From the NCBI RefSeq assembly GCF_039555335.1, contig NC_092642.1:14146243-14210242 (forward strand): a DNA stretch of 64,000 nucleotides, in the 5' to 3' direction. Numbering within the stretch: position 1 is the stretch's first letter; the number at the start of each line of letters is the position of its first letter. Below, in pieces: positions 4,261 to 54,642 of this stretch. Below the pieces are notes generated by a model. That model was not told the DNA's origin, made no database searches, and saw only the letters and a program-made list of their open reading frames with translations. The DNA is from Amphiura filiformis (Eukaryota; Echinodermata; Ophiuroidea; Amphilepidida; Amphiuridae). Position numbers and translations under genes: made by a program.

Positions 4261-5333
4261 TTAAGCTTGTATTTGTGTGGCAAGCCATAAAGACACAGCT
4301 GTCAGATTACTTATATTTACTGTGATTTTTTTCTGACATTCCTTTGCAGCTGCAACTGCTGGTTTTGTCTGACATGCTTCTGCAGCTGCTACTGCCTGTG
4401 GTTGTTCTACCTCCTCATGATGAGGTCTGCCACGAAAGTGTTCTATTACGCGAGATAACCACCCTTGGTTTTCTCGTCGCCGTCTCAATCTTCTATTCTC
4501 TTCATAGCTGACATGAAATTCTTCACTTATTATTCTTAATTGCTCTCCAACTGCTATCTCTGGTCTTGGTCTTAATGGTTCAGTATTGGCACGTGGGCGG
4601 AATGCTGACTTGACTACTGTTGCCTGGCCTGCATCTGTTCTGCTTCGCTCAGAATGTCTCCTCTCAAAATGGGAAGTGTGTAAAATCTGTCGTCTTAAGT
4701 GCTCTCTCCTCAAATCTGCCGATGGACTCCTGTGAATAGATGCACTATTAACAGGACTGTTCGTAACTCTTAACCTGATATCAAATGTCAACATAGGAGG
4801 AGTTTGGGTTGAGGCAGTGAGGAGTCTTGGCGATGACGATCCATAGCCTGGCGATAAAGATGTTGGCGAGTTTGGCTCACATGGAGCCCACGGTGACACA
4901 CACATTAAGTAACTGTTATGGTGGGATGGTGTTGTACCACTACCACTAAGTCTTCTGTGGTTATTATGATTATTTGAAGGCGAACTATGGTGAGTGCTGG
5001 GATTGGAACTGGGAATGGTGATGGGGGTTGATGAGGCACAAGTTGTTGGTATCGTATGAGATGACATCGGTGAAGGCATTGATGAGGTAGCAGTGCTCTC
5101 AAAGACATCATTGCAACTGTCTACCACATCCTCAAGTTCTTCATCTGTCATCATACCTGCACACTGAGTCTCAAGGTTCTCCAACACAGGGGCGATATTT
5201 TGTATCTGATTCTGCATCTTCATTGATGATGTTGATGATGAAGAAGAACAAATCACCAACCCACTGTTATATTTTGGAGCTTCTTTGATAATCCATGGTA
5301 TTGTTCTAGATCTAATACAGCTAGTAGTAACAT
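4261..5333 (-). CDS. Terminal exon with LC8 motif and BIM/BMF-like BH3 motif
   Basis: This long open exon of about 357 residues starts after the acceptor TTGCCTTTTTTAG in phase 1 and runs to a stop at 4261-4263. The first half is Ser/Thr/Pro/His-rich and looks disordered. At about 4797-4811 it encodes STQTPP, the core of dynein-light-chain (LC8) ligands. At about 4501-4563 it encodes RPEIAVGEQLRIISEEF followed by HVSY. This fits the BH3 pattern: hydrophobic anchors V, L, I and F at the correct spacing, a small residue (S), and an acidic residue (E where most BH3s have D). BIM and BMF have the same order, LC8 motif then BH3. An Arg-rich stretch and a weakly hydrophobic last 20 residues follow. 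The likely role, by inference, is a pro-apoptotic BH3-only protein held on dynein/cytoskeleton. It may be its own gene (first exon at 5951-6121) or the 3' end of gene B; both fit the phase. Confidence 0.72.
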
Positions 5334-5950: not shown

Positions 5951-6121
5951 CGCACAAGTTTGCCTTTGGTAGTTTAAATCTTGAGCGTGTAACGGTTGGT
6001 TGGCCTATCTGGGGTAGTGATGACGGGTGAGTGTTTGTTAATGGGGTGTGATCAGTCAGTATAATTATGATAGGCCTACATGTATATCTTTCGAGAGTAC
6101 TTTTTCTCAGCATAGCAAATC
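5951..6121 (-). CDS. Candidate coding exon upstream of the BH3 exon
   Basis: A strong acceptor (TTTGCTCCCAG) opens 171 bp that read through in one frame to a strong donor (TGCG, then GTGAGTAAAG). Both borders are phase 1, like every other exon here, and it joins in frame to the BH3 exon at 5333. An in-frame ATG at 6111-6113 (protein MLRKSTLERYTCR...) could be the start of an independent BH3-only gene. The encoded 57 residues show no known domain. A 'taggcct' word inside suggests part of the exon may be repeat-derived. Confidence 0.42.
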
Positions 6122-7470: not shown

Positions 7471-9482
7471 TAGTCACAAATTTAGCACAGGGGTGTAGTA
7501 CCCCCTTAAGTAAAGGGTTTAAGAAAATAACTCCCTTCTCCCCTAAAATTAAAGCCACGATTTCTCCGTGGTATGGAAAAACGGACAAATTCACGAAATT
7601 TGGGGTTTGCTCACAGAAATTTGAAAATGCCACAAAATAGTGAAAAACTGTGTAACTTATGTGTTGATTTGCAAAAGAAAACAAAAAAAAGTGATAATTT
7701 AGCATTAATCAAGCATTAAACAATCCATTCTAGCATTTATTCTAGGCCTACAATGCAAGATTCTGGTCGATAAAGCTATCGGAAGTACACACAAGACAAT
7801 TGATGATGCTTAATTTTAATGAGGATGTTGAGGGGAGACTACAGTAAAAAGGTACATATAATTATATAAGACAAATTACACTTTTAAAAACATGCTTGTA
7901 TTCACTTTTCAGTGCTTTATAATGTAAAATGGAAAATCACGGAATCATCCAATTTGTAACATGGAATTTCAATTTTGTAACACGGAAAAATCGTGGCTGT
8001 ACCTAAAATTATAAAACATTTGGCTGCATAACCTTCAATAATTTGACAGATTTAAAAACCAGCAAAAAGAGCAAATATTTTGGGTATTTTTAATATTTTA
8101 CTAAATAGTACCTACCCTATGATGTACATAATATGTATGAAGAATTTGTTTCTAAAGGGATTAAAACCACAGTTGGCTATAAAAAGTGGATTATATTCAA
8201 ATTTACAAAACTTTCAGGAAAATACTGATGGCCATAACTTTGGACCCATACATGCTACAGATGTGGAACAAAGGTTAAAATGTGTATTTTTTAACTCTCT
8301 TTCGTGTTCTGCACATAATGTTTGGTAAACCATTTTGAAAACAAGCTCTTCACATATTGGTATCAAATATTCAAACAAGATGTATGGAAATCAAAAAATA
8401 ATATACATAAAATGACTACCTTTAACAAAAGGTTGGTCAACAGTCTCATCAGTGTCAATTGCGTCATTTGGTCCATTCATTGTGTTTGTGCAAACATCTG
8501 GAAATACAAGCATATACAGCGCAACACTTTAATAGACATGACACACACAACACTATTATTTTGTTGTATCTTTAAAAAAATTCGTTCACTAGACCAAAAA
8601 AATGTTTTGCTTTCGCATGTGAACTCGTCATAATTTATAATACCTCAACAGTCACTGTCATATTTAACCTATTTACTATTAATACAGTTTGTAAAAGTGT
8701 GGTAATTGGGAAAATGTTAAATTAATTTCTGCATCTACGGATTGCAACACATGAATAATATCATAGGAAGTGCCTAGTGACCTTAATGTTGACCTTGCCC
8801 TTTAAACCATCACCCTTCTGAAATATCAAATATGGCCACTACTTGGAAGAGTTGTGGTTATATACATACAATTGAATCGCACCCATGCACAAATTAATTC
8901 CCTTCCTTTAATATGCATTGAGATTCCCTGAATGAACACGATTCAAGTAGCTATATACCGGTGAGTCATACATTATAAGTATCACCTACAGTACAAATGG
9001 ATGAGCTACAAATCACACCAGATAGCCATCCAACCGGACAGCCAACAAATTAAACCAACCATCTGCACCATAACATAAGCCACACAAAACACAGGTTGGG
9101 TAGCCAGGGGGGCGCCAGGGGAAGATCAGAGCACAAAATACACTGATGACGAAAATGGAATTAGAGGAACAAGGACATATAATGACAACCAATGTTTTGA
9201 GCAGTGTCTTTCCTCAGAGAACTCGTATCTCTGTGCAAAAAGAACAAAACCTGCCATTTAAAAAAACAGTCTATAGCATCTAGCCCGGTCAGTATCTAGA
9301 GTGTGACCAACGATATCAGGCCATATATCATAGATTGCAGAAACCACTAGAACATCACTTGAGCAAGTATCAGTATGTTTTTCACCAAGAAAGGGCAGCA
9401 TACTGTTGGTTTTCTTTTCTTTTTTAAAAACTTTTGTCTACTTTTCCCTCTCATCTCCATTACCCTATAAAAATATACATAC

Positions 9483-9773
9483 TTTGAGCATATTCATCCT
9501 GTATTATCACACAATCCTCTCCTTCAATGTGTATTTCCAAAATCTTCTCTTCCAATAGCCATGCGTCTTTCCTTGCCACTGCTTCACGCAATCTGTTGAC
9601 TCCCAGCTCCGGCATTTGAAGGACTATGATGATGCTGCCATTTCCTAATGCTCTAACATTTATGTATCGTTCTGGGATCATCAGTCTCTTTGATATCACT
9701 GCCTTAAATGCATTAACATTGGTCATATGCATATGTCGAATGTTTCCTTTGATGCGGAATTCTACATCTTTAC
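9483..9773 (-). CDS. Gene B exon: TRADD-N-like alpha/beta domain
   Basis: The exon starts after TTTGCTCAACAG in phase 1 and encodes about 97 residues that align clearly with the gene A exon at 49861-50175. Shared landmarks are KDxxxVEFRI-G, the helix ending in IP-R-IN, the strand GSII-V-Q-P, and the end IHIEGE-CV-IQDE. The predicted order beta-alpha-beta-beta-alpha-beta resembles the TRADD N-terminal domain; that assignment is inference from topology and from the DED/death-domain company. A donor A|GTATGT (9481-9482) gives a phase 1 exit. If it is not used, the frame runs on to YIFIG and a stop at 9460, which would end gene B here. The alignment with gene A extends to the SM just past this donor, so the read-through form is a real alternative. 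Confidence 0.75.
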
Positions 9774-12999: not shown

Positions 13000-13242
13000 C
13001 AAAAGATTTCCCCCTTCTTTTGAACAAGACCAGAGGTTGCGTTTCCATAATCTCCTCCCTCTTCTGTGCATATTCTTCCACATCTTCATAAGCACTAGTC
13101 AGGCCTAATTTAGCTAAGCACCACTGGACGAAAAAGAGATTATCTTCACTAAACAGATGACATCTTTGCATGAAGTTGAAGAACTCCTCTGCTGTGTTTA
13201 TGTTTTCTAATTGATTTCCTTTAAGTCCATGCTTCCTAAAAT
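13000..13242 (-). CDS. Gene B exon: death effector domain
   Basis: Exact boundaries: acceptor TTTTTGTTTTGCAG and donor TTTTG|GTAAAG, phase 1 on both sides, 81 codons. The protein reads INTAEEFFNFMQRCHLFSED followed by NLFFVQWCLAKLGL and then V-EYAQKREE. This is the DED pattern: amphipathic helix, 'sEDNL', helix, and a last helix ending V-EYA. It aligns with the gene A DED (54643-54882) at TxDxFFN, LxSEDNL and VxEYAxxR. The usual RxDLL charge motif is not retained (LTSAYEDV), so its homotypic partner may differ from the caspase-8/FADD type. A basic tail (FKRRGKSF) closes the exon. Confidence 0.82.
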
Positions 13243-16039: not shown

Positions 16040-16225
16040 CTTCTACACAAATTCCCTTCAATTTCTTCAAGTTTGGCTCAGATATTGCTTCACATATGTC
16101 ATATCTCAAACATTGAAAAGCTGCATTTGGAATAGTATTTAGTATTTCATTTTCTTTCCTTCTCTCGCTGCTGCTTCTGCTTTGACTTCCACTACTACCA
16201 TTGTTCCTCTTCCTTTTCTTTTTGT
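16040..16225 (-). CDS. Gene B exon: basic linker, second half
   Basis: Acceptor TTCTTTGTGCAG and donor GAAG|GTGAGT bound 62 codons, phase 1 at both ends. It encodes KKKRKRNNGSSGSQ, a Ser/Arg/Lys stretch, and then IPNAAFQCLRYDICEAI and LKKLKGICVE. This second block aligns with the gene A linker exon (IPNLAYRCLKEDIANKL ... LKYMQKVTES). That paralogue match is the main support for an exon too short to stand out as an open frame. The Lys/Arg run could be a nuclear localisation signal (inference). Function of the conserved block is unknown. Confidence 0.85.
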
Positions 16226-17575: not shown

Positions 17576-17734
17576 CTCGTAAAAGACATCTGCTGTTGTG
17601 ACCACACAACTGCAGATCAGCCTCCGATGACTCAGTTTCCTGATCGACATCTACACCAGATGTATCACCATCAGCGCTTGGTTGAGTCAACATTCTGTGT
17701 GTAGTTCTTTGCAGCTGATTTGCAATGTGGCTTT
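17576..17734 (-). CDS. Gene B exon: linker, first half, with GC-AG donor
   Basis: The acceptor TGTATGCAATTAG gives phase 1. Fifty-three codons encode an acidic Ser/Thr-rich segment ending in CGHNSRCLLR. The exon ends CGAG followed by GCAAGT, which is the textbook GC-AG donor; it gives phase 1 and joins in frame to 16225. Gene A has the same segment fused to the second half in one exon, with GHRFRCLLPD at this exact place, which confirms the splice point. No known domain. Confidence 0.8.
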
Positions 17735-27144: not shown

Positions 27145-28434
27145 ATGAATGTGAGAACCATCCGAGAGAACAGATGTAGAGAAGAGCTAGTGTCATACTT
27201 GATAGAATACAACATCAACATCCTGGGGATCCTGGAGCACCGCATAGTGCATAAAGAACCAGTCAAATTTGAAGACATCCTGGGACAGACTCTTATCACA
27301 ACATCAGCTACCAGGAATAGAGCAGGTGCAGCTACAGGGGGAGTAGGAATAGTGCTAAGCGCAAATGCAAAGGCTTCACTGGCTGGTGTGGTACCACATA
27401 CAGAAAGAATATTGGTTGCCAACTTTCAAGGAAAACCTGCAACTACTGTTATCGTTACTTAATGTCCCACCAATGTGGTAGACGAAGACAAAGTAGAAGA
27501 TCACTATGACAACTTGAGGAGAACTACAGATTTCATCCCTGCGCACAATGTCTTGATGGTTATTGGAGATTTCAATGGCAGAATTGGACCAGAGGATGCA
27601 AAGTTCACCTACCACGACATAACTAATAGGAATGGGAAGTTCTTGGTTGATCTGGCAATTGAAAAGAACATGATTTGTGCTAACACTTATTTTAGGAAGA
27701 GAAAAGGAAAGCTATGGACTTTCTGCAGCCCAGCAGGAAACAAGTACCAACTGGATTATATCCTTCTTCGCAAAAAGTGGAGAAACAGCCTACTAAATGC
27801 AGAAGCATATAATACCTTCGCAAGTGTAGGATCAGATCATAGAATTGTGACATCAAGGATCAGACTCAGCCTGAGAAAGACCAAGACCCTGCCTAGAGGG
27901 AAGAACCATGACTGGAAAACACTCTGCTCAGACTCCAAGCTTCAGGAGTTATATACTGTTGAAGTACACAACAGATTTCAACCCTTGGAGGAAATGGAGG
28001 AAACGGCCACTGAGAGGTATGAAAGATTCATAAAAGCCAACAGGGAAGCAGCAGAAAAGGTTATTCCAGTCAAAAAGAAGAATAGGAAGGTACGGCTTTC
28101 AAGCGATATCAGAGTGGTGAGAGCAAGAGATGACATCAGAGAAACCTATGATGCGTACCAGTTGGATGCAACTGAGAGAAACAGACACAGATATAAGGAA
28201 ACCAAGGCGAACTTAGAGGAAGCATATAATACTGCTACGGAAGAAGATCTTAGTAAAAGGCTAAGAGCGGTTGAGGAAGCGCATGACAACTGCAAGCATG
28301 GACAAAGCTGGAAGCTAATTAATGAAATAACTGGAAGGAAAGCATCAGTGAAAGGTCAGCTGAAGGGAGACACACAGAATGAAAGGATTAACAACTGGTT
28401 CACCCACTTCAACGATCTCCTAGGTACAGTGTAG
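27145..28434 (+). pseudogene. LINE endonuclease and inter-domain region
   Basis: The frame begins at MNVRTIRENRCREELVSYL, close to the usual endonuclease start but without the first catalytic strand. It continues through the EEP-family motifs IGDFNGRIG, TFCSPAGNKYQLDYIL and GSDHRIV (catalytic DxN and SDH). An in-frame TAA at 27460-27462 breaks it, and the frame resumes at once. It stops again at 28432-28434, where the next segment continues in another frame. Confidence 0.85.
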
Positions 28435-28498
28435 CCCTCCAGAAATATATGAAGAAGATGAGGATATTGTACTGCTGGCCAAGGATCTAAACATCAAT

Positions 28499-29852
28499 GT
28501 GGCACCATTTAGTCAGGAGGAATATGCAAAGGCAAAGACTGCACTGGTAGAAGGGAAGAGGTGCGGAGAGGATGGTGTACCACCAGAGGTACTGAAAAGA
28601 TGCGATCTGGATGGCATAGTTCTGGAGTTTTGCAATAATGCACTGATTAAAGGAAGCAAGCCTGAGCAGTGGTCTATTCTCAACATAGTACCAATTCCTA
28701 AGTCAGGAGATCTTAGTCAAGCAGGGAACTATCGAGGGATTAGCTTAAGCTCAGTTGTTGCCAAGATATTCAACAAAATGATACTCAACAGGATCAGGCC
28801 TGGTTTCAGGGTTGGCCGAACAACAGTAAGCCACATACTGGCCCTAAGGAGGATCATAGAAGGAGTGAAGGCTAAAAACCTGCCTGCAATAATAACCTTC
28901 ATAGACTTCAGGAAAGCATTTGATACATTCATAGAGGAAAGATGCTGCAAATTCTCAAGGCCTATGGAATCCCTAATCAACTTGTGGAAGGCATAGCAAG
29001 GATGTATGAAAATACCAAGGCAAAAGTAGTTTCACCAGATGGAGAAACTGAACCGTTTGATATTCTTGCTGGTGTACTGCAAGGAGACACCCTAGCCCCA
29101 TACCTCTTTGTGGTGGTATTGGACTATGCATTAAGGGAGGCAGTTGAAGGCAAAGAAGAGCAGCTTTGATTCCAGCTGGAGAAGAGAAGAAGTAGACGGA
29201 TCGGACCTGAAGTGCTAACAGATTTAGACTTTGCAGACGACATAGCCCTATTGTCTGAGGAAATCCACCAAGGACAAGAGCTACTGCAAAGGGTTGAATC
29301 ATCTGTTGGAAAAGTAGGCCTCAAAATGAACGCTTCAAAAACTAAGTTCATGTCTTTCAACCACAATCAACAGATATCTATACAGGCAAACAATGGCACC
29401 AAACTAGAAGAGGTGAGCGACTTCAAGTATCTGGGTGCATGGATGGCTAGTACGGAAAAAGATGTAAAAACACGTGAAGCAGCTGCATGGAGAGCATGTA
29501 ACAGCCTCAACAAAATCTGGAGGTCAACTCTCCCAAAGAAATTCAAGAGCCGTTTATTTGCTGCTACCGTATGCTAACCTATGGATGTGAAGCATGGACT
29601 ATGTCCCCCAGACTATGTAAAGAACTTGATGGTTGCTACACAAGAATGCTTAGATCAGTATACAACATCAATTGGAAGCAGCACATCACAAACAAAGAGC
29701 TATATGGTGACCTACCAAAACATTCACAGAAGATCAGAGAGAGGAGGACACGTTTCGCTGGGCACGCAAAAAGAAGAAAAAATGAACCTGTAGCTAAGCT
29801 GATCCATTGGACACCAAAACATGGAAACAGAAAACCTGGTAGACCCCTCTAA
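28499..29852 (+). pseudogene. LINE reverse transcriptase, frameshifted
   Basis: RT blocks appear in order over three frames: EDGVPPEVLK, PIPKSGDLSQAGNYRGISL, FRVGRTTVSHI, TFIDFRKAFDT (block A aspartate), LAGVLQGDTLAPYLF, then DLDFADDIALLSEE (FADD catalytic box) and KTKFMSFN. The C-terminal part has YGCEAWTMSP and RTRFAGHAKRR, common in RTE-like elements. A short deletion lies before FRVGRTT. Frame changes occur near 28950 and 29570, so no active enzyme is made. Confidence 0.88.
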
Positions 29853-37265: not shown

Positions 37266-37907
37266 TTATTCATCCCATTCATCCGACCCTGGAGGATATG
37301 CCAAAATCTCTGGATAACAGTTGAAAAACCCCAAGGCATTGGCCATCTGTTGGCGCATGATCATAAGCCCCCTTTCAGTAGGGTGCGTACAATCCCACAT
37401 ATAAATTGGGCCTTGGTCATCCGCATTGTTTAGTCTTGGGTGGATGACGTCATTATAACGTATCACATGGGCATTACCCCCCAGCATTTCCCTGCAGACT
37501 TTATGTGCAAACTTATTTAAGTTTTTTGTGCATCTTACCCCTGCTCCCCTTCTCTTTTCCATTGAATAACCTAGTCGAAATAGGATATCCGACCAGATAA
37601 TCCTAGAGAAGGGGAGAAACTGCCTTAAAGCCCTCAAGTGCTCTTCTATGCTAGCCCTTATCACCCCCAGGTTTGCCCCAAAAATATCGTTTGTGCCCAT
37701 ATGAATTATTATAGTAGTTGGAAATGGACGTTCCTGTAATAGCTTTGCAACTCTCCATTTAAAGTCGAAGAGTTTTCCTCCAGGCTTCCCATTCCAAAAA
37801 CATTCGCCTCCCCCATACAACTGTGTATTCGGTTTTCCCGCGCGATTGATTATTGAGTCCCCGATTATCCATGTGCGAATGGGTCGTTCTGTAATGGGAG
37901 AGAACAA
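37266..37907 (-). CDS. Ngaro SGNH-type hydrolase ORF
   Basis: An intact frame of 213 codons. It shows the SGNH/GDSL blocks: WIIGDSIINRAG near residue 15 (nucleophile Ser), IIHMGTNDIFG near residue 70 (block III Gly-x-Asn-Asp) and CTHPTERG near residue 188 (catalytic His, with the preceding Asp). Ngaro elements often carry such an esterase-like ORF after the recombinase; its role in the element is unknown. It follows the recombinase ORF by about 300 bp. Confidence 0.85.
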   Translation of the reverse strand: MFSPITERPIRTWIIGDSIINRAGKPNTQLYGGGECFWNGKPGGKLFDFKWRVAKLLQERPFPTTIIIHMGTNDIFGANLGVIRASIEEHLRALRQFLPFSRIIWSDILFRLGYSMEKRRGAGVRCTKNLNKFAHKVCREMLGGNAHVIRYNDVIHPRLNNADDQGPIYMWDCTHPTERGLMIMRQQMANALGFFNCYPEILAYPPGSDEWDE

Positions 37908-38203
37908 AAAACTAAGTAAAACTGCAATGATATCGAGGCTAAGGCCCCAACCTTACACAACATCCGTTGAGAGAGTTTCTCTTCCCTATCTCCTGGTGAA
38001 GTACCTTAAATACAAATGGAAATTTATTAATCCTTAATTGCAACTTTTCTTCAAAATTTCCTCCTTGGGGTAGCACCTAATTTAGAAATGAAAATTATCA
38101 CAGTTAATGCAAAAAACTTCCAATCCCTCTTGACATGAGAGATTTTCTCGATGCAAACAAGTGAAGTACCTGAAATGAAATGAAATTGTTAATTAGTCAG
38201 CAA

Positions 38204-39151
38204 TTACTTTAGAAAGACTCTTGTTGTGTTTAACAATGACTGTGGTCTAATGTACGCATGAAAAGCACCCGACTTCCATCTACCCATTTCCTTAATTTGT
38301 TCATCCGAAGCCCCGCCTAATGATGCTACTGTAGCCGCTCCAATTCTGAAACTATGCGCACTGAAATGACTAGGAGATATTCCCAAAAGTTTAATGCCTT
38401 TTTTCATGATACAAGTAAATTGATATGAAGTTAGCGGATCGCCTGCAAAATGTATAAACAGAGGCCCTTGCTGAACAGGTCTTACCCTTAGGTAATCTTC
38501 AATGGCTTTTACCGGGCATAACCGACTATTAGAAGAGCTCTCGATTTTCAATTTTGATGATAGCCCTTTTTGGTCCGTCTTCGAGTATCTGATTGTCATA
38601 TCTATAATTTTTTGATTCTCCTGAGAAATAGATACATCCTCTACAGCTAAAATTCTTGATAAATCACCTGACTTTTTCACACATGTAAACTCTCCAATTC
38701 TTAAAAATCCAAAAAATGCCAAAAGAAATGCCGCCTTGAATAAAATAAATTCAAACTGTGATTTGCAAATGGATGGTAATTTTGTGATCAAATTATCCAG
38801 TATAACTGGTGTAATAGGTAGTCTTGCATCACAACGAGGATTTTGCCTCCTGCAACCTTCCTTCAGTTTTTTGATTATAAAACTACCGGTTGGATCTGGC
38901 CACCCATTAATTTTATGGACAAATGCGAGGGCTGAAATATATGAATTCACTGAGGATGGTGCTTTCCCCTCTAATGTTAAATATGCAATGAAATTTACTA
39001 TATGCTCCTGAGGTGCCGGCCAGATCTGACACAGGTCAAACTGATTTCTGAATCTTAAAAACATTTCTACACCTGCACTATATGATGCCCAAGTTGATGC
39101 TGCCATTGATGCTCTCAACAATCTCTGGTTTTGATTAGCTAAATCCCCCAA
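38204..39151 (-). CDS. Ngaro tyrosine recombinase
   Basis: An open frame of 315 codons, complete in appearance. An N-terminal SAM-like helical region (MAASTWASYSAGVEMFLRF) precedes the catalytic domain. Catalytic residues visible are the first Arg in FFGFLRIGEF, the HxxR box in SAHSFRIGAAT, a Trp/Arg segment in MGRWKSGAF and the Tyr in HAYIRP. It replaces the integrase of LTR elements and integrates a circular cDNA. The start overlaps the end of the RNase H frame by 13 bp. Confidence 0.9.
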   Translation of the reverse strand: MGDLANQNQRLLRASMAASTWASYSAGVEMFLRFRNQFDLCQIWPAPQEHIVNFIAYLTLEGKAPSSVNSYISALAFVHKINGWPDPTGSFIIKKLKEGCRRQNPRCDARLPITPVILDNLITKLPSICKSQFEFILFKAAFLLAFFGFLRIGEFTCVKKSGDLSRILAVEDVSISQENQKIIDMTIRYSKTDQKGLSSKLKIESSSNSRLCPVKAIEDYLRVRPVQQGPLFIHFAGDPLTSYQFTCIMKKGIKLLGISPSHFSAHSFRIGAATVASLGGASDEQIKEMGRWKSGAFHAYIRPQSLLNTTRVFLK

Positions 39152-39573
39152 ACAAATTGCGGCACCGACCTGCCTTCTGCTTCCGCCTCTGGCACCAGAT
39201 TCCGAAAACGCTCTACCTGGAATCGTGAAAGTGCATCAGCAATGTCATTTTGTTTACCAGGTATGTATTTAGCTGAAAATGCAATATTTAACTTTAGACA
39301 TTGCAAAACAAAGAAACGCACTAAATTCATTATTTTTGGACATCTCGATGTTTGCTTGTTGACGATAGCTACAACTGACTGATTGTCTGACCTAAGTAAA
39401 ATTCTCTTTCCTGTCCACTGATCTCCCCATAAAACTAATGCTACTACTATGGGAAAAAATTCAAACCATGCAATAGAATGACTCTTAACTTGATTTGGCC
39501 ATTTACCTTGAAACCATTGGCCCTTTAAAAAACCTCCAAACCCAATACTTGCGCTCGCGTCCGTGAACAGCTG
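39139..39573 (-). pseudogene. Ngaro RNase H, cut off from RT
   Basis: The frame begins with LFTDASASIGFGGF and continues through FFPIVVALVLWG, LLRSDNQSVVAIVNK and DIADALSRF, giving the RNase H acidic residues. It is the continuation of the RT frame, separated from it by the 2.18 kb insertion, so no joint RT-RNase H protein can be made from this copy. Confidence 0.85.
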
Positions 39574-41757
39574 CACACCGTCATCATCCCTATATCTTCG
39601 TGTTAAAAATTGCCGTGGTAGTACGATAAATCCTCACGTTTTTCAACAACTACGCATGGTGATTTTGTTCGAGATAGGCCGTGCGCGACTCAGGCTATGC
39701 ATACAATTTGAGATTTTGAGAGCCGCCACACTGTTTCTATTCTATGTTTTACGATTTTCGCATGGTCAGTATATGGCTGGCCGTAACCGCCACAACGTGG
39801 AGCTGCTACGCGTAGCTTACTTTTCGCTTCGCGGAGCTAAATTGACCAATCATGTTAGATCTTTTCATTACGCGGAGCCAGTTGATGCATCATCGTTCTA
39901 GAGAGAGAAAATTCTTGCCAAAATTAATGTTTACTATGTGGATTTTAAATGAATCGAATGTAAATAAACCACCAACAGTTGTACAGGATCAATACCATTG
40001 TTTGATTAGTGTATAGTCAATGTTACCTTGCATGCATGTGCCATGTGTGTGGCGTGTTTGTTTGTTTGTCTACTGTGTCAGGCCAGGATCACTGACACCC
40101 ACGGTACTGATACTGTCATACTATCACGGTGATCATATTGTTGAATGTTGTTGACTTTAAAATAATCATGATGCAGTCATGTCTACAGTAGAATTCACCA
40201 CGCCCTTTGAAGGACATAAACCCCATTAAAAGCTATTAAACCAAGATAACACTCAATGAAAACAGCTCAACTATGTTACATCAGATCTACTCTGGTTAAA
40301 TACACACTGCACTTGTGTCTGTTTTACCTGTGCAATGAACAATGAGCTGGTATTATAGTTTCAGTTGGGTGAATGATTATAAAGCGAACGCAAGGTAACA
40401 ATACTGTCTGGGCTTTTGTTTACTGAAATGAGACAATAGTCTGCTTATTGTTAACCAGCGTTCTTGAAAATGAGAAGCATAATGGTTTGCAGACTTAACA
40501 CGGTTTAGAAATAATTTGTTCATATTTTTTGGTGTTATCTGTCGTTTACATATCCTTCCTAAAACACAAAAGTACCAATATTTCCAAACACCTAAATTAG
40601 CTAAAATTTAGGAAATGTTACAAAACTATATTTTCTAGAATTTCAGAGAATACTTTAAATATTGACTGGTTATTTTTTACACAGTGACGTCATATAGGCA
40701 ATGGTATAATACTTCTAACATACACTAGGTCACGCGTCAATGGTGAGCGCACTGAGTATTGTGTATAGGAAAACGGGCAGTACCGTAACTACAGTATGTA
40801 TGGCCTACTACTAGCATAAAGTAAATCCGAACTGGTTTGCTGAAGGTCGAATTCCGCAGGCCACGCTTGCAAGATGTACAAATCAGCTCCGGCGATACAC
40901 TGCAGATCGCAGAATTGTGTGCATGGTTTACCACCACTCTGCCTAGCTATATAGTTGTGTACAATACTGTATGAGTTTCTTGTGAGTGCATGTCCATCTT
41001 AATAATAAGTCGGTTCGTACTTTTCATAAATTACTTTTTGAATCATAACTATCGTGACCGAGGATATCTTGCAACTACGTGAAGCTCGCCTGGCAAATTC
41101 TTAATGACTAAATTCGCTTCACGTAATGAGTAAGTCGTACTTGATTGGTCAGTTTTACCTCCGAGTAATGAAAAACTCTAACATGATTGGTCAATTTGGC
41201 TCCACGGAACAAAAAGTCAGCTACGCGTAGCAGCTCCACGTTGTGGCGGTTGCGGCCTACCATATCAGTATCCCATATGATATTTCTATTGTAAGAAAAT
41301 TTTATTTGTTGTCACAGGTTTCGTTTAAATGTACTAACTGGAAATTAAATGTACTAATTAGTGAGGACCGGTATTTTGCTGTGGATATGTTTAACTGCAA
41401 TTTTGATGTAAAACATTTGAAATCCGCTGTAAAAATTTTGATAATATTTAACTCTTTGAGAAAATTATTTTATAAAGGAATGCTGGTAAAACCAGGTGCA
41501 ATACAATGTACATTATTGACACACTATCACGCTCTTTATCTTCGTCAATAATAGAATAATCGATTTCAATCGCATTGAATGCATGAGTTTGTAGTTGACT
41601 ACTGAGCGACCTAAGCGATCGATTGCTAGCCAATCAGATAGAACTCCTTTTCTTGCGTTCAGTGAAATACCACTCGCCTGTCGCTCACTACCACTCGCCT
41701 GTCGCTCACCAACGGAGTATTAAATTTATATTTATCGTATAGGACGTCGACGGTGTG
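39574..41757. mobile_element. 2.18 kb DNA element inserted in the Ngaro
   Basis: The ends are CACACCGTC and GACGGTGTG, flanked by AGCTG on both sides (39569-39573 and 41758-41762), a 5 bp target duplication. Long imperfect subterminal inverted repeats (39775-39900 against 41090-41290, including CCACAACGTGGAGCTGCTAC) are present. No transposase is recognised, so the element looks non-autonomous. Its right 520 bp recurs inverted at 63183-63692. Confidence 0.82.
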
Positions 41758-43187
41758 AGCTGTAAGTCCTCGTCACTTGACCACATTTGATCTGGGATTA
41801 TGGTAGTTCCATTGAAATGTTCAAGAAATAAAACCCACATTTTCAAATCTTTCTGAGCCCCCTCGGATAGTGCAATTTTTTGGCTCGACTTTTTTCCCCC
41901 ACATGTAAGATCTATCAGTCGGCGCAAAAATGCTCTTCCTGGGGCTACTGCTTTGCAAACAAACGAAAGTGACCCGATTACTGATTGCAGCTCTTTCAGG
42001 GAAACCTTTGTATTTTTGGCTAGTTTACGAATTTTTTCCAAAATGCTGGCTAGTTTGTCTTGTGGAACCGAAATGATTTGTTTGATCGAATCGATTTCCA
42101 AGCCTAAATATGTAATTTTCGTACTTGGTCCCATAGATTTTTCTGGTGCTAATGGGACTCCCAAATGTTCGCACACATCTTCAAACATTTCACAAGGCGA
42201 TTGCATGACATAAAACATTCGTTTTAAATGGGGCCCAGTAAAATAGAAATCGTCCATATAATGAGATACCCTGTCAGTCCCCGCTTTTTGTTTTACTACC
42301 CATTCAATGAAGGTTGAAACCCTTTCAAATAGAGCTGGTGAACATGAAGCCCCCATTGGCAAAGCCTTATCCACGTAATATTTACCCAAAACTTTCATGC
42401 CAAGTAGTTGAAAATCTGCTGGGTGTATTGGCAGTAGCCTAAAGGCTGATTTAATGTCTGCTTTTGCCATGAGTGCCCCTTTTCCTACCCCCACAACTAA
42501 TTGAACTGCCTCATCAAAGCTCGCATATTTCACCTTACAAAATTTTGGTTCAATGCCGTCATTAATTGACCCCCCTTCCGGGAATGAGAGGTGCTGAATA
42601 AGCCTGAAACTACCTGGTTCTGATTTTGGCACCAATCCAATAGGCGAGACTATAAGATTAGTAATGGGTTTTTGAATGAATGGGCCTGCGATTCGCTTAG
42701 CGCTTATTTCTTTATTCAATTTCTCCACTGCTCTATCTGGGAATTGTCTAACAGATGGCAAGTTCTGTGCCTCCCTTCCTACCCGATCACCTAAATAATG
42801 TAACTTAAAACCTACAGAAAAGCCTTCTTTAAGGATTTGTGCAGATGCTGAGTCAGGATACTTGTCTAACAATGGAATAAGATTCCCAACTTTTATCGGA
42901 GATGGATATTTACAGCAAATGCAAATAGACTCTACACATTTCGTAGGCCTATTGCTACCATTATTGTTCAATAAACTATTTGCCTCCTTTTCTACAACTA
43001 AATGCCCCATGACCTCGCTCCCCGCATTGCATACATCTGTGTGGGTAGACACAACCTGGTCGCATGCATCCCCTCTCATTGAATTTGAAGCACACAGCGT
43101 GACCTGCTGCTTTACTACTGAACCCTCGTTGTGCTGCGCCTTGAAATTGTTGCGAAACCCGCCTTTGGGCTGAATTTGGGATTGCAT
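41758..43187 (-). pseudogene. Ngaro reverse transcriptase, interrupted
   Basis: The frame carries SPIGLVPKSEPGSFRLIQHL (RT block 2), ALMAKADIKSAFRLLPIHP (block A, catalytic Asp), ALPMGASCSPALFE (block B) and VSHYMDDFYFTG (YMDD box), then ITYLGLEID and the connection region. It breaks at EDLQL where the insertion starts; the last residues before the stop at 41706 come from the inserted DNA. Its start overlaps the gag region in another frame. Confidence 0.9.
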
Positions 43188-44686
43188 AACTTCGACCTTG
43201 AAACTGTTGGCGAAACCCGCCTTTGAATTGCTCCCCTTGCTCGAAATCGATTATTGAACCCTGCTGGACTAGCATATGAGCTATTGTAAGAGCCAGTGTA
43301 AGAACCAGCGTAGGAACTTGGATACGGGTAACCAGTAGGTGCGGTGATATACATTGCCCATAATTCCCCATCTATGGCAGCCCATGACCTTTGTGGTAGA
43401 TTCTGCTGCCTCAACCTAAATTGTTGGTCATAAGTACGCCAACCCCACCCCCCAAACCGTGAAGCAGCCGTCCTAATTAAATGTGCGTATTTCAGCAGCT
43501 CTTGTGCACGATTAGGATGTGCTTCCAAATAAATTGCGCTGAAAATAAGGAAGGCATTGGTCCAAGCATGAATTGTTGTGATAATTTTCTTAGGTTTATC
43601 ATTTTTCCATACGATCTTGCCTCCATCTTTTATTGACAAAGACAATGCATGATCATCTTCAACCTGCTTATTGGGGTCACTTTTTTCCAACAGCAGCGCA
43701 AAATTCACAAATTCCCCATTTATTATTTTTGTCCTCATTGATTGAGGAATTCCTGTGCCTAGGGGACTGCATACTGAAACCAATGGATTGAACCCATATT
43801 GCATTTGATCATTTAACATCATATTCATATCGACATTGCTTGATGAACCCAAATTTTGGATGACATTAGTACCTGCAGTTGTACCTGCCGCTGCATTACT
43901 ATTTGAATGACCATTATTGGCATTGCTAGCTCCAATTGAAATATTGCTAGCCAACGTACTATTTGCTACATTGGGCCTATTGACATTTGCATCATAAACA
44001 ATATTATTTGCACTTCCATTACTAGCAGTAACCAAATTATTGGCGATCGTATTGCTAGGATTAGAGGCTATTGTCATTGCCTGATTAGCACTACCAACAC
44101 TTCCACAAGGGCCTTGATGAGCATGAGAAATATTGATCGAATCAATAGGATTTGCACGACTTATCTCAATCATTGACCCATTTACTTGATTCACAACACG
44201 GGTACCCCGAAAATTACCTGTGAGCAATTGATCTGCTACACCCTGTTGTTGTCTAGCGGGCTGTATCACCGGTATCTGCATCTGTTGACCATGGCCTTGC
44301 TGTTCGATAACTTGTGGTTGTACGTGGTCTTGTTGTACCCAAAGCACTCCATCATCATGTTGTTGATGCAATACTGGTAACTGTTCTTGTGCATCCGCTT
44401 GCGCCATTGGCGGCTGTACCTGTTGAACATTATTCTGTCTAGGTTCACGAATCTCACGACCACGTTGATCACTTTGTTGTGGTACATGTACCTGTCCTTG
44501 GTCAAGTTGGTTCACTTGCCGTACACTGTTCTGTGCATGCGTGACCTCTGCACTGCCACTACTGGTACTAGCTCCATTGTTGACATTCAGCGCACTGTTA
44601 TTATTGACATTCAGCAACTGATTAATCGCTCTTGATTGAGCTCTCGCCTGTCGTTCCGCAGATAAATTGTCTGACGCTTCGACCAA
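43115..44686 (-). pseudogene. Ngaro gag-like ORF with frameshifted zinc knuckle
   Basis: 523 codons. The first 300 residues are Gln/Asn/Ser-rich and low in complexity. A conserved globular part follows (about 43500-43780, with IVWKNDKPKKIITTIHAW and RAQELLKYAHLIRTAASRFG). The zinc knuckle CMQCGERGHGAFSC (CX2CX4HX4C) and the preceding CX-rich segment lie at about 42980-43110 in a neighbouring frame. Both frames remain coding-like across 43240-43370, so a single indel near 43245 probably split gag. Confidence 0.75.
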
Positions 44687-45243
44687 CTTGCACTGACTTT
44701 GGAGTTTGTTTCTGGTTCTTTTTGTTACTTCGCTTCCCCATCTTGCTCTGTACTAGCTAAATCACGACGAATTATTATAACTGTAAAGTCCAATTTTCCG
44801 CAGGCCACTGTCAATAAATATTTGACTTTCCCAGACGAATAGCACTGTATTTTAGTCCCGTTGTAGTTCGGATGAAAGAAAAGTTACTTTCTACTCGCAT
44901 GAATCGTAGAAAAAACCCTGCGAAATGTCAATTTCCAATGTTGATAAAATTCACGACCACAATTTTTCAGGTCTAGATTTTAGTTCCGTTGTAGTTCGGA
45001 TGAAAGAAAATTTACTTTCTACTCACATGAATCGCAGAAAAACCTCGCGAAATGTCAATTTCCAATGTTGATAAATTCACGACCACAATTTTTTCAGGTC
45101 TAGAATAACTCGTCTATTTATCACGACGACTTGGAATATAACGATGAAATCAAATGAAATCAAATGATGAAATCTGCATGTATATCAATCACAGATACTG
45201 TTTTTTCTCGGGGAAAAAACCCCGCGAAAATTAAATCTTGAAC

Positions 45244-45638: not shown

Positions 45639-46030
45639 TCAAATGTCTTCAGGGACATCGTGATGATGCATATCTAGCTGATAGCAGTGGTCCATGAAAT
45701 GGGTTTTGCCATGTGTGTATTGTTTGTAGAAGCATTCCTTAGGCATAGATATCATTGTAGTTGGGAAGGTGGTCTTCACATCAATATTGGTGTTGAAGAT
45801 AATTATATTGACTGCACCATCCATGTAGAATCCAATCCATGTTACAATGCTTGGATGACGATGTTTTTTCATGATTTCAAGCTCTTCTTTTTCCATTGCC
45901 ATAACAGTCTTTTTGTATGATTTCTTCAAAAATAAAACTTGGTTTGCAGTTGTAGAACTACCTTCACCTAGTTTCTCACCGAATTCAAGATCGCTGTATT
46001 TGATGTAAGTCTCACCCATCACACCAGATT
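45639..46030 (-). CDS. Gene A terminal exon: kinase N-lobe-like, probably inactive
   Basis: The acceptor TGATATTTATAG gives phase 1. The frame has a Gly-rich loop (LEFGEKLGEGSSTTANQVLF), a strand with VMAMEK where VAIK is expected, the helix C region EELEIMKKHRHPSIVTWIGF, and a beta5-like VNIIIF. No HRD or DFG follows. The remaining 50 residues (with MISMPKECF and HHHDVPEDI) may be a degenerate C-lobe start before TGA. The beta3 Lys is replaced by Met, so a pseudokinase or decayed kinase is likely. The Ngaro insertion lies only 117 bp downstream and may have cut off further exons. Kinase homology is fairly clear; functional status is inference. Confidence 0.7.
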
Positions 46031-49009
46031 CTATAAATATCATGTAAAAGTCATCATTAAAATGTTTTTAGATATACTTTGGTGGGGGCTGGAAAAACAT
46101 AGGGGGACAAACACAGTTTTGAACAAAACATGCAACTTGATATCACTTTTTGTGATGTTATATTCTCTGCAGATGTCACTTCGAGGGTAATAACTGCACA
46201 TCAGCTGAATTTCAGCTTTTGTTTAAAATCAGATTGTTGAATAAAACAATAAGTGAATATCTGCCAATGCATTGATAGCAAGTATTTGTGAAACAGGCTC
46301 AGGTGCACTTGTGGTTTTTTTTCCAGCTGTTATGTTATCTTGCCTCTCTGGCACGATAAAAACTTTTACCATCATTGTACCATCAATTAGTTTCTTGTGA
46401 TTTCATTGGAAAATTACTGATTAGATGTTCTGTATCTTGCCCTTTGCGCGTAAAATGTGTCTATATCTGGGTAGTAAGGTACTACGCATGCGCAATCCAT
46501 CTGACGTGATGGCAACAAAAGCTGAAAAAGCCATTTGCTGTTCACTTGAATAGGCTCATATTTGCAATGTTCATCTGAATTCTGACAACATTTTAACATA
46601 ATTTAACCTAAAGCATATTTTACCTAAAGTTATGTTTGTGAATCAGAGAAAGATTATTTTAAGTACTGCCCCTTGGCCCTGTTCCAAAAGATTTTTGTTA
46701 CCATAAGTTTGTCACCCTTGCTCTCTTTTAACACATATTCAAAAACTCAACATAGTGGGTACGCCAGTGGGTAAAACAGCAGTCTTTAAATGTTGTAGTT
46801 ACTGATTTGGAATAACATGTATATATAATAGGTGATTGGGAATAAAAGGCACTGAAATCTATTGAAACACTTTTCAAAATGTTGGGGCCAAGAAAACAAT
46901 ATATTCTGAAGTTCTGACATCAAATCAATCTGCATAATTACAAAACAAACAAAAACACTCAGACAAATCAAGGGATTCAGGGTAAAAACACAACCCAAAT
47001 AGCCAAAAAAATTATTTGATTTTGTGTGTGTTTGTTTAGCTTCAGATTGATTTTGAAAGAAGAATTACAGATTCAGGAATTGGTTCAATGACATGATAAA
47101 TAAAAACTTTAGGCATCCTGCTTTTATTTCAAAAATGTGCTGCTGTATGTTTTGAATTAATTGTGAGCCTCTAATTGGTAGTAATTATGCACACATACCA
47201 GAATAGATTTATTTTGGTATCAAAAGATACACAAGGGAAGAAACCAAAAGTTTAATGACATATAAAGAAAAGTGCTTTTGTTACATACATGTACTTGCCA
47301 ACATTGGAAAATCAAAAACAGGGACAATCTTATACGAAGCGGAGTGAGCGAAGCGCTCGCTTGTCACAGCCAGGGGGTCCAGAGTCCAGGTGCAATGTGC
47401 CGGTGGGGTTGAGGGGCAAAGCCCCCCCATGAAACTCCTGGGCTTCTACACATTACAAACCTATAGGAGCCCCTTCTAAGACAGATACTTTAGAGGACAG
47501 TGGTGCTTTGATTTAAGACTCTAAAACAAGTTTTTTTGTGTGGTTTTAATTAAGGCAGGGATTTTTGGTTAGGTTTTCGGGTACCCGACCGAAATTTCAC
47601 TAAATGACTAGATGCATAGTTATTGGCCCTATTTAATTTTATTTCCATTTTATTTTCAATATTGGGGCCAATTTGACTTTCAAGCCTTCCGAATTCGGCA
47701 CATTTGCACTACATGCAATCATAAGAAAATGGTCAACTTTGGGCTTGTCATTTTATATGAAGTCAACCTATACAATTACTGGGACTTAGCAAAGTTGTAA
47801 TTTAAGACTAGTAGTTATACAAAAGTGATGTTTTATCAATTTTGAAGGTGGACCACATCGACTTTGGGCCCCCTGAAAATGTTGAATTTGCAATAAATTT
47901 CATCTTCGTGAGGGCGCTGTTCGAAATGTAAATGAGTTGTGACATCAATTTTTTGGATATGCATTGTATTTATCCTATATATAGCATCAGTGACAACAAA
48001 AGATTATTAATCTCACAAAAATGTGAATTTAGGGGGCTAAACTTGCCAGTTTACAAAACATTACATTTTTTCTTGCATATTTAATGACCCCGTGACACAA
48101 CACGCAATTACAGAAATTTTTATTTTTTATTTTTTTGACAAATTTGACATGCAGTTAGTGTGTACACAAAGTTTCAGACCTCTCTCTCTTTTATAAAGAA
48201 GGCACAGCCTCCCAAAGATGAAATTTGTTTAAAGGGCAACTTTTAGGTCCAAATTTAGACCCCCCTACTCCAACTTTAAATGGCTGCCACAGAAAATCCG
48301 AAAGAGATACAGACCTCAAATTTGCAGGTTTTTAATACTTTTACAGGTACAACATATGACTAAAATATAAAGCAAATCTGAGGGGGTCAGGTGGGGCGAC
48401 TCCTTGATTTCATATGGAGTGACCCATATGCAACAAAATTTGGATCCTCTAGAAATGACCAGGGTTTTAGTTTTTAACAACCTTATGTTGCATTTTGATA
48501 TGGTAATCTTGTCCATAATCAATGGAAGCTGATGGGTACCAATCATTTTGATATAGCCTGTATCAGTTACTGAGGTGACCAGATCACCAGGCTATCATTT
48601 ATATAGCTATATTATAGGCAGTCAGTGAGTTACATAAAATAACCTTGTGTGGTGTTAGTTACCAGCAAGTGAGTTTTGCCTTTTGTGGTTGGATATGTTG
48701 ATAGCTCACTGCAAGGGTTATTACCATTGATTTGGTCGAAAAAAGGGGATGAGACATGATCAATTATCTGTTAAAGGCAGCAGTGCCGCTGAGAGCCATT
48801 ACGGGCCCGGAGGCAATGTTAACGCATGAGCCCCTTTGATCAGTGATGATGGTGCAGGACTTCATAAGTGTGTGCGTGTGTGTTGGGGGGTAGCAGTGGC
48901 GTAAATTTCTTTGTGAGGAGGGAGGTTGGTGTAAAATCTTTGAACATATGTTGAAGCAGAGTGAAAGTATCATGTTTAGCTGCCAATAATCAAATATGAA
49001 CATTGAAGG

Positions 49010-49350
49010 AGAGAAATGCGCGCAAAGCGCGCACAAATTTTTAATTTGAGAGTGGCATTTTGCTCTTAGATTAAGTTCCTCTTAATAACATCCACGCGAA
49101 GTACAAAAATTTTGCCAATTTGAAACTAAAATGATCCAAGTATGAACGGTTGAATTGGACAAATGCGCGCATAGCGCGCGAAAGTTTGCAATTCGAATTA
49201 GCGGCTTTTGCTCCCATATTGAGCTTATTGAAACAAACTCTGTGCAAATTTTTTTCCAATTTTAAGGTAAATAATTAAATAATAAACTGAAAGGTACAAT
49301 GCGCGAGAAGCGCGCGAAAATTTGCATTTTGTGTTCCCACGACTAAGCTG
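49010..49350. repeat. Three-unit tandem repeat with GCGC palindromes
   Basis: Units of about 145 bp share AATGCGCGC-A-AGCGCGC followed by AAATTTGCA-TT-G and a 'tttgctc' word (49016, 49164 and 49299). Such CpG-rich palindromic words stand out in otherwise AT-rich DNA. Confidence 0.65.
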
Positions 49351-49655
49351 CACTCCCCCCGATTTTTCGAAGATTTCATTGTATCGAGGATGATCATTTT
49401 GGCAACAAGAAACAGTAAATCCAAGTGAAATATTTATTGGAATGTGTGCTTCAAAGGCTATCTTATATATTTTTTTTAATGCATGTCTCTTTTCTTTGTT
49501 TTTTACGGGCCCGCTACTTTTGTTTGCTTGAAAGACACTAGAACCCAATGGATATAAAAATTCTAAGGGTTCTTACTTGTCCTTTTAAGCTCAGAAAGAA
49601 AGAAAAAAGGAAAGAAAGGAAATTTGAATTAATAAATAAATGTACCTGTAACTAA

Positions 49656-49738
<83 letters not shown>
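49656..49738. repeat. (GAAA)n microsatellite
   Basis: About 20 GAAA units with a degenerate continuation to about 49830. On the gene A sense strand it is a long (CTTT)n pyrimidine run starting about 30 bp after the donor at 49860. Confidence 0.95.
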
Positions 49739-49739
<1 letters not shown>

Positions 49740-49860
49740 CGAAGAAAGAAAGAAATGTAGAAATGTAAGATATAAAGAAAGGGAAGAAAGAGAGAGGAAG
49801 AAAGAAAGAAAAGAGAGAGGACGAAAGAAACAAAGAAAAAGAATTGCATGTGATAAATAC

Positions 49861-50175
49861 CTGTAACCATACTATCAGCTGACTGTTCATCTTGAATCCA
49901 CACACATCTTTCTCCCTCAATGTGTACATCAAGAACTCCATTTCTTTGAAGCCATGAATGTCTTTGTTTTAATGCTTGTCGAAGTCTTTCAATACCTATG
50001 TCAGGTATCTGAAACACTAGAATGATGCTTCCTTTACCAATGCCTACAAGATTGATATGTCGCCGAGGAATACCAAGACTTTCAGAAACTAATTTCTTGA
50101 ACTTGCTGGCATCAGCCATTTTGGCATGCTTAAAGTCACCGTTGATGCGAAATTCCACATATTTGCAGTCTTTAC
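49861..50175 (-). CDS. Gene A exon: TRADD-N-like alpha/beta domain
   Basis: Acceptor TTTTACTTACAG and donor TTACAG|GTATTT, 105 codons, phase 1 at both ends. Sequence landmarks are VEFRINGDFKHAKM, the helix SKFKKLVSESLGIPRRHINL, the strand KGSIILVFQIPDIGIERL, a second helix with RQALKQRHSWLQ, and DVHIEGERCVWIQDE. It is the paralogue of 9483-9773. The beta-alpha-beta-beta-alpha-beta order and the death-domain/DED company suggest a TRADD-N relative (inference; not proven by eye). It is expected to act as a protein-protein interaction module in the cytoplasm. Confidence 0.83.
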
Positions 50176-51536
50176 CTGTAAGTAAAATGTATCACTTGTT
50201 AATATGCTCAAAGAGAAATCACTAAGCACAAACAAAAACTATGAATGAAAATGATATGGCCCATTCTCTAGTTCTTCTTACACCAACAAAATAAAGGATA
50301 ATGCAGTATCCTTTACACTTAAATAATGTGTCATAAGCAGTGAAAATGTAAATAATGGTGAGGTGCAACCAAACCATTTAAAATATAAATTGTAGGTAAA
50401 CAACAAAACAAACAAAAACCTGTTCTATGGGCCTGTATGACCAACCCAGATTTTGAGGGTTTTTCTGTAAAAATGTAAAATGTAAAATCTGTGGCTGTTT
50501 TTTCTTCTTCAAAAATGAGAGCAATTTGATATGCCTGATGTGCTCTTATGTCCCAGAAAAAATACTGTGCTATCCGAGATCTTAAGCTGCAGAGTGGAAG
50601 GTTGGTCTGAACCCTGGAATTATGGAAACTTTTGGGCCTCATAACTGCTAAATTGTTGGTCTAAAGTATATAAAAGTATACATATTTAGAATGACAAAGA
50701 CTTGATAAGTTCATCTGTGCTCAAAATGCTCATTTTTGGCCCCAAATCCCAAAAAACAGGTTTTTGGCCCTTTTTTTTCAGTACAACGTAAAAAAAAAAT
50801 CTTAGCCCCCAATTTTTTTTTTATTAATTTTTAAAAACTAGATAAAAATATTGTTTTTTCATTTTTTTTAAAAAAAAAAACTTGGTCAAAAATGGTCAAA
50901 AAATGCTGAATTTTCAAAAAAAATCATAAAAAAGCCAGATTTTCGCCCAAATTTCAAATATTTTTTTTTAAGTTTTTCAAAATTCAAAAAAATAAAAACG
51001 GCTCCTTCAGAATCTTTATTAAATAAAATTAAAATTTTAGGCCTACCATACCCACCTAGTAAAAGTTTGACATGTATGGTTTGACACTGCAGTCCATTCT
51101 GGACTGAAGATTTTTCATTTTTTTCACATGGAATTCCACATCAAACCATATAAAGCATTACTTCCACCCAAACTTGATTCTGTAGTCATTCTGTTGTATT
51201 TTCATCAAATACGTCAGACAGGTAAAGCTTTTCAAAGACCACAGTGGTTCTAGCATTAAAAATATTTGACTTGGACACAGTTGTTCAGGTAACTGAAAAC
51301 ACATAAATATTTTTGTCCAGCCTAAATCACTGTTACAGTTGTTTGGTCCTAGATAACATCATAATTCATGATGTTCATTATTTCGTTTAAGACCAGGTGC
51401 CTTAGGCCCTCAATAATTGTAAAAAGGAGATATTTATTTTGTAGTGGCGTATAAGAGTCACTTTTCCAAAGGGCAAGACAAATAATTTCCTGTTGGGTGC
51501 CATTTTTGCCTGGTGACAATTGTTACTTTATTACTA

Positions 51537-52308: not shown

Positions 52309-52792
52309 TATATTACTTTCCAAACCGTGAAATTTTGTTTTTACTGAGCCGATTTTCAATTTAGTCCAAAATAAAAGTGAAATTTGTGTTTATTGTGCCA
52401 ATTTTACACTATGGGAGGAGTTCAGTGGCATAGCATGACTCATCTTATTGGGGGGCACTGACAATGATGGGTGGGGGAGAGGGGCAAAAATTTTACAGCA
52501 ATTTTTCTGTGGAATTGTCTAAATTTTCAAATCGATTGGAGGGCACGTTCCCCTATGACGATACGCCACAAGAGGGGTTGACATTTTCTTTGTTGGGGTT
52601 AGGTTTAGGGGATTGAAATCTTCTTGGGGGAGTGTTTGCAATTAAATCATTTTGGGGGCTCAACCCCCAACCCTTCGCAAAGACCACACTGCATGTGGGA
52701 GTATGCGCCACATGGTTGAAAATTTGTATTTTGTTCACTTAAATATTTTGAAGCACACCAAAAGATTGCTCACATGGCTGATGCTGAAGGGG

Positions 52793-53171: not shown

Positions 53172-53466
53172 TGAAGGGGTGTGTTGATGAAGAAAAATAA
53201 ATCAAGGAAATGTAGTTCCCCTCCAAACTTCTGTGCATCTATTTCAATTTGAAGGTGGGATAACTTGTAAGTGAACTATATATTGACATGAAATCATTAT
53301 TTCTTTTCACAATAAATCATGAAGATCAATTCGGCATCGGTTCACTCGGGTTACTTCATATTTTGTTGATTTTTGTAAAAAGAATATTGTTTAAAGATAT
53401 TTCCCCGATTTATCAGCCATTTTTAGGCGACTTGGGAAAATTTTACAGATTTTTGGGTCCTCAACT

Positions 53467-54553: not shown

Positions 54554-54642
54554 GCTTCAGGGTTGACATGTTTTCAATATTTTGTTTAACATAGGAAACA
54601 TACTGCTTTACTGTTTTCTTATACTACCTGTAAATTATTTAC

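Follow-up and report, generated by a model that had tools for sequence, protein, structure and literature searches.

Does an exon of Amphiura filiformis in which an LC8-type core is followed by a BH3-like segment encode a pro-apoptotic protein of the BIM/BMF type, and is this protein the product of a gene of its own or of a longer one that begins with DED and TRADD-N-like exons? We addressed both questions in a window of 64,000 nt, i.e. the whole stretch of DNA that was analysed. Judged from its sequence, the exon probably specifies the C-terminal portion of a protein of the BIM/BMF type. The features on which the following argument is built are collected in Table 1.

The exon and its coding potential

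The exon extends on the minus strand over 356 full codons and a stop codon at 4263-4261. It is preceded by a splice-acceptor AG at 5335-5334, so that 5333 is its first base, and it is read in phase 1. The open reading frame around it comprises 376 codons, compared with a maximum of 196 in 60 Markov-1 shuffles of the window. Its period-3 signal of 7.7 compares with a median of 0.93 and is reached by 13 out of 965 background segments, among which are other coding and repeat DNA. In view of the ORF length relative to the shuffles and of the period-3 signal, a noncoding exon was rejected. That it might be a decayed or unexpressed copy comes to mind because retroelements are present elsewhere in the window, but with 376 open codons, the period-3 signal and an intact splice acceptor this appears very improbable indeed.

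Table 1. Features of the window that bear on the BH3 exon and on the units upstream of it
Feature	Position	Strand	Basis
BH3 exon, 3'-terminal coding, holds the LC8 core and the BH3	4261..5333	-	ORF, acceptor, period-3
BH3 segment RPEIAVGEQLRIISEEFHVSYEEN (RPEI...SYEEN)	4495..4566	-	Pfam, BH3 profile, BLOSUM62
NQGWLSRVIEHF, candidate amphipathic segment after the BH3	4435..4470	-	inferred
STQTP, LC8/DYNLL-type TQT core, Ala at -3	4798..4812	-	motif from PMC2871139, PMC3078936
RPRANTEP, just N-terminal to the BH3	4576..4599	-	position from sequence
Predicted internal phase-1/1 exon with a strong acceptor and a strong donor (GTGAGT)	5951..6121	-	splice rank 3/2,565
Predicted small exon, phase 1/1, in-frame ATG 8480 (MNGPND)	8420..8497	-	splice rank 43/2,565
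TRADD-N-like exon, phase 1/1	9483..9773	-	48-49% identical to exon 50175-49873; splice rank 23/2,565
C-terminal DED half, phase 1/1	13000..13242	-	splice rank 11/2,565
Basic linker and N-terminal DED half, phase 1/1	16040..16225	-	splice rank 1/2,565
Possible first or further upstream exon, ATG 17693, GC donor, GHxxRCLL also present in the paralogous unit	17576..17693	-
Second set of DED/TRADD-N-like exons	58495-58211, 54882-54643, 50175-49873	-

We ranked 2,565 open phase-1/1 candidate exons of the minus strand by a generic splice score; its consensus is that of metazoans in general and not trained on this genome. The acceptor of the BH3 exon is the weakest among the four checked in the DED unit nearest to it, at the 90.6th percentile. 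The exon contains two phase-1 donors, after 5157 and 4881, with good scores (ranks 15 and 17 of 2,565), so that it could be split further. An acidic segment, MTDEELEDVVDSCNDVFES, lies within the exon at 5095-5151 on the minus strand; its hydrophobic moments of 0.43-0.47 are among the highest of the exon, and it is presumably reminiscent of the acidic N-terminus of BMF.

Mobile elements are present elsewhere in the window. On the minus strand, 37266-44752 holds ORFs of a tyrosine-recombinase retroelement (reverse transcriptase, a sub-threshold RNase-H-like match, a recombinase of the phage-integrase type and a GDSL-hydrolase), which we take to resemble Ngaro/DIRS elements. LINE-like pieces are located on the plus strand at 27463-29852, with reverse transcriptase in the ORFs 28424-28996 and 29170-29577. 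Neither Rfam, at its gathering threshold, nor a tRNA search yielded a match in the window.

The BH3 segment and the LC8-type core

An earlier, sequence-only reading had described this stretch as an exon in which STQTPP is followed about 80 residues later by a BH3 motif with its hydrophobic positions and small residue in place, with a flanking RPEI and an aromatic after EF that recall BIM, and with Glu at the site of the conserved Asp. The observation was borne out. The exon is coding, and RPEIAVGEQLRIISEEFHVSY is encoded 82 residues after STQTPP. For scoring, nine BH3 peptides (eight human, one worm) were used. A profile of the eight human ones, run against the PDB, recovered chains of BIM, BMF, BAD, PUMA, BID, HRK and NOXA within the best 60 of 145 rows, while a BIK chain was not among these best 60. 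The scan of the window covered 1,945 ORFs of at least 22 residues, corresponding to 79,778 residues and 31,833 26-mers. Here the profile of all nine peptides gave 25.0 bits for the exon segment and 7.9 for the runner-up; in 20 residue-shuffled ORF sets the maximum was 14.8 bits. Genuine BH3s scored between 13.8 and 38.9 bits when each was left out of its own profile. The exon segment still came first when BIM (22.1 bits), BIM and BMF (20.8 bits) or BIM, BMF and PUMA (15.6 bits; next 10.6) were removed from the profile.

Pairwise comparison points in the same direction. The ungapped BLOSUM62 score of the segment is 49 against the BIM BH3, where the next best of the 31,833 window 26-mers reaches 23, followed by BMF with 33, PUMA 29, BAD 20, BIK 17, HRK 9, NOXA 8, EGL-1 6 and BID -8. 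Among all window 26-mers it ranks first for BIM, BMF and PUMA, third for BAD, fourth for BIK, and then 43 for HRK, 88 for NOXA, 93 for EGL-1 and 1271 for BID. First place for these three and lower ranks for the others argue for a BIM/BMF/PUMA-like BH3 and not for a generic helix. A 40-residue BIM fragment compared with the window ORFs by blastp had its best match here (E = 6e-4, 46% identity over 26 residues), and again with short-query settings (E = 0.010 over 21 residues).

The Pfam family PF08945 (Bclx_interact, BH3) matches exactly the BH3 segment, with profile positions 8-38 of 39 and E = 0.013, but its score of 15.8 bits stays below the cut-off of 25 and becomes 15.4 when the upstream exons are added. 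Of the profile searches envisaged with the sequence-only reading, ours placed the segment first and the Pfam one remained sub-threshold. The only other Pfam family on the exon at E up to 10 was PF07632 (E 0.23), at a different place. A Pfam scan of the 40-residue BH3 piece alone gave no family, and phmmer searches of the PDB with the exon and with this piece found 0 sequences at E up to 10.

At the position of the conserved BH3 Asp the exon encodes Glu; the other motif positions fit. In the corresponding profile column D counts 4.86 and E -0.39 bits, so the exchange costs about five bits. According to passages of PMC2871139, the salt bridge between this Asp and a BH1 arginine is important to high affinity, yet it is missing in the low-affinity A1:Bmf complex. 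That such a complex forms makes Glu in the exon BH3 compatible with binding. Hydrophobic moments were ranked for 116 18-mers of the exon, those with Pro beyond the third residue being left out. Where the exon aligns with the helix of BIM, the 18-mer shows a modest moment of 0.24 (rank 55 of 116), compared with 0.46 for BIM itself, and an overlapping 18-mer that starts at the conserved BH3 Leu reaches 0.50, the maximum of the exon.

Across the 79,778 residues of the window ORF set there are five TQT and a single STQTP. In the LC8 consensus (K/R)XTQT, as given in a section of PMC2871139, Lys or Arg is required where the exon has Ala. What remains of the LC8 motif that had been claimed is therefore a TQT core upstream of the BH3, in the order of BIM and BMF, and not the strict consensus. 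According to passages of PMC3078936, TQT is the binding epicentre and position -3 is less conserved, though it too is shaped by DYNLL binding.

Could the BH3 of this coding exon be a look-alike that arose by chance or by convergence and does not bind BCL-2 proteins? The Asp to Glu exchange, the sub-threshold score with PF08945 and the weak moment of the BIM-aligned 18-mer would fit such a view, and unrelated proteins with BH3-like motifs have been reported, as parts of PMC12134178 describe. The segment nevertheless scores 25.0 bits where the best of 20 shuffled sets gives 14.8, it stays first without BIM, BMF and PUMA, the similarity reaches into the flanking RPEI, and the TQT core is placed in the BIM order; moreover, the echinoderm candidates printed in PMC8998228 were, by the account of that text, found using Bim, Bad and Bmf seeds. 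We therefore regard a look-alike as rather improbable, and on these scores the likeness to a BH3 is very unlikely to be due to chance. The presence of a BIM/BMF-type BH3 after an LC8-type TQT core is, as a reading of the sequence, well supported. The motif RPRANTEP between the two presumably resembles a basophilic-kinase or 14-3-3 site.

Upstream exons: one gene or two

Whether the product can be called BH3-only depends on what lies upstream on the same strand. There, predicted exons for the two halves of a DED and a predicted TRADD-N-like exon were found, possibly preceded by an exon with ATG 17693; the frame is still open beyond this position, and the N-terminus is uncertain. The GC donor at which this putative first exon ends reads GAG/GCAAGT (17575, minus strand). 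When the two DED halves are spliced, the Pfam score is 33.6 bits over positions 6-79 of 82, against 27.2 bits for the second half alone and a cut-off of 35.9. This rise supports the modelled intron. The first half had been missed by a Pfam scan of 13.2-23.0 kb and by regex searches; tblastn with the paralogue located it at 16.1 kb, with the frame checked, and the idea that this DED has no first half was rejected accordingly.

The name of the TRADD-N-like exon rests on its paralogue, which scores 17.2 bits against a cut-off of 23.7; exon 9773-9483 itself gave no Pfam match for TRADD-N at E up to 0.1 or, as modelled, at E up to 1. A PDB sequence search with the exon pair had no match, and a comparison of these exons with viral contigs showed no relative.

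The paralogous set lies further upstream and is preceded by a Death-domain ORF at 60757-61092 (25.0 bits, cut-off 22.6). Between the two sets the TRADD-N-like exons are 49% identical (E = 1e-32), the second DED halves 37.5% over 64 residues (E = 6e-12) and the first halves 33% over 30 residues (E = 3e-4); the spliced DED of the paralogous unit scores 27.7 bits with Pfam, where the cut-off is again 35.9. Over 238 codons pS is 0.78, near saturation, and pN is 0.42, which fits constraint. On the minus strand, the region 45639-61092 presents a Death domain, DED halves, a TRADD-N-like exon and then a kinase N-lobe-like ORF, which ends after 142 codons and scores 21.2 bits for Pkinase (cut-off 31.7). 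A long CTTT microsatellite (~49652-49750) follows directly downstream of the TRADD-N-like exon of this unit.

In the splice ranking of the 2,565 candidates, the DED first halves of the two units are placed 1 and 4, the second halves 11 and 25, and the TRADD-N-like exons 23 and 110. Rank 2, which falls within a LINE-like element on the opposite strand, is presumably a false positive; together with the pieces of the BH3 exon at 15 and 17 this means that a high rank is no proof. From ATG 17693 the modelled exons, once joined, read as a single frame of 719 residues (662 if 6121-5951 is left out), and every modelled junction from 17.6 kb down to the BH3 exon is of phase 1.

From this arises the possibility that the exon is the last one of the upstream DED/TRADD-N-like gene, with a protein of about 719 aa, a reading to which we give substantial weight though somewhat less than an even chance. 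The common phase and the single open frame speak for it, as does the gain from 27.2 to 33.6 bits when the DED halves are joined across the intron. Phase agreement is, however, weak evidence, being expected by chance at one in three junctions. Both TRADD-N-like exons may end at an aligned phase-1 donor, so that the one nearer to the BH3 exon is probably internal, but in the upstream unit this donor is the poor one at rank 110, and another phase-1 donor follows 12 bases on. Exon 6121-5951, with its high rank and strong acceptor, may receive an upstream splice and would join the BH3 exon in frame. The search that found this exon covered phase-1 candidates only, so its phase is not independent evidence, and the splice score yields false positives, as rank 2 in the LINE-like element illustrates. 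Between 9422 and 5334, phase-1 ORFs of 20 or more codons begin not only at the acceptor of the small exon but also at four others that reach the 90th percentile, among them that of the 6121 exon. From the TRADD-N-like exon to the small exon no AATAAA occurs, whereas two ATTAAA signals do lie between them. In the interval that separates the TRADD-N-like exon from the BH3 exon, Pfam detected no domain in any of the three frames of the minus strand (E up to 1), which would agree with one continuous gene. Against it stand the lengths of the printed echinoderm candidates, 373 and 350 aa by the account in PMC8998228, for which 719 aa would be too long. The small exon, of which no second copy was found in the window (best other match E about 1), has an in-frame ATG of its own, and together with the BH3 exon it yields 377 aa, close to the printed 373.

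Among the models of a separate gene the shortest, which starts at a Met within the BH3 exon, has 320 aa and the longest 434 aa. In those of 377-434 aa the BH3 is the sole recognised domain, to which the fused model adds the DED and the TRADD-N-like part. A separate gene of this size fits the data slightly better than a fusion, and our judgement leans, by a little, to a BH3-only gene that has its start in either of the two small exons upstream. Accounts of the exon as a BH3-only inducer thus hold for the BIM/BMF-type BH3, by sequence statistics, while the label 'BH3-only' may be wrong, given in-frame DED and TRADD-N-like exons upstream that may share the gene.

Proposed function and comparison with known BH3 proteins

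By analogy with BIM and BMF, the segment would most likely form a helix that occupies the groove of proteins of the BCL-2 family, with Glu in place of the salt-bridge Asp. It would neutralise pro-survival members and/or activate BAX/BAK, and its action would be pro-apoptotic. Through the TQT core the protein may be tethered to motor complexes by LC8/DYNLL until a stress signal arrives, and after release from LC8 the BH3 helix would enter BCL-2 grooves. In the case of a fusion, DED assembly would add a receptor-side input.

Such a fusion, if true, would create a direct link from DED assembly, at a complex resembling that of death receptors, to mitochondrial apoptosis and thereby unite the extrinsic and intrinsic pathways in one polypeptide. 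A death-receptor adaptor would then carry its own mitochondrial death ligand, and no caspase-cleaved messenger of the BID kind would be needed. Among the matches listed from open-licence PMC full texts, no paper dealt with a DED and BH3 protein of this kind. With respect to evolution, a BIM/BMF-type protein with an LC8-type core in an invertebrate would date this branch, and perhaps also the tethering to motor complexes, before the vertebrates; Bim and Bmf are present in sharks and rays and were not found in lamprey or hagfish, as stated in a part of PMC8998228. The Asp-to-Glu change is a natural experiment on the strictness of the BH3 salt bridge.

Of the known proteins BIM (BCL2L11) is closest. 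With it 10 of 26 residues are identical, and the RPEI flank, the hydrophobic positions, the small residues and EF are in register; presumably BIM also has an STQTP core upstream of its BH3. The exon differs from BIM by Glu for the BH3 Asp, by Ala for Lys at the LC8 position -3 and by the 82 residues between the motifs. Furthermore, in BIM the LC8 and BH3 motifs are on exons 4 and 8, according to a passage of PMC2871139, whereas here one exon holds both. BMF shares the order of LC8 motif and BH3 and gives the second best BH3 match (33), but with 5 of 26 residues identical. Pfam scans of the exon, of the added upstream exons and of the modelled DED/TRADD-N part showed no BCL-2 family besides the sub-threshold PF08945. 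Homologues of the exon were sought in viral contigs and prokaryote genomes and no relative was seen, as expected for an animal gene.

BID has a body with a BCL-2-like fold and acts once caspases have cleaved it. Under a fusion the protein would resemble BID in carrying a death-receptor signal to the mitochondria; its BH3, however, is not BID-like (rank 1271 of 31,833). With DED proteins of the FADD and caspase-8 type the locus shares the DED signature upstream of the BH3 exon (33.6 bits), although here the DED stays below the Pfam cut-off of 35.9 and a TRADD-N-like domain adjoins. A caspase domain was not present in the stretches and ORFs scanned with Pfam.

Among echinoderms, potential BH3-only proteins are listed in a part of PMC8998228 for S. 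purpuratus (373 aa), A. planci (350 aa) and S. japonicus (118 aa); according to the same source they were found via human Bim, Bad and Bmf seeds and have their BH3 on one exon. The words dynein and LC8 have 0 occurrences in its main text. The exon described here looks like the same kind, by length and structure only, the single-exon BH3 and the length being likened by description and not by sequence. Given these printed candidates, a BIM-type protein in an invertebrate is not new. For none of them does that part of the source report a link to a DED, and it is the possible DED fusion that would make the protein encoded here unusual.
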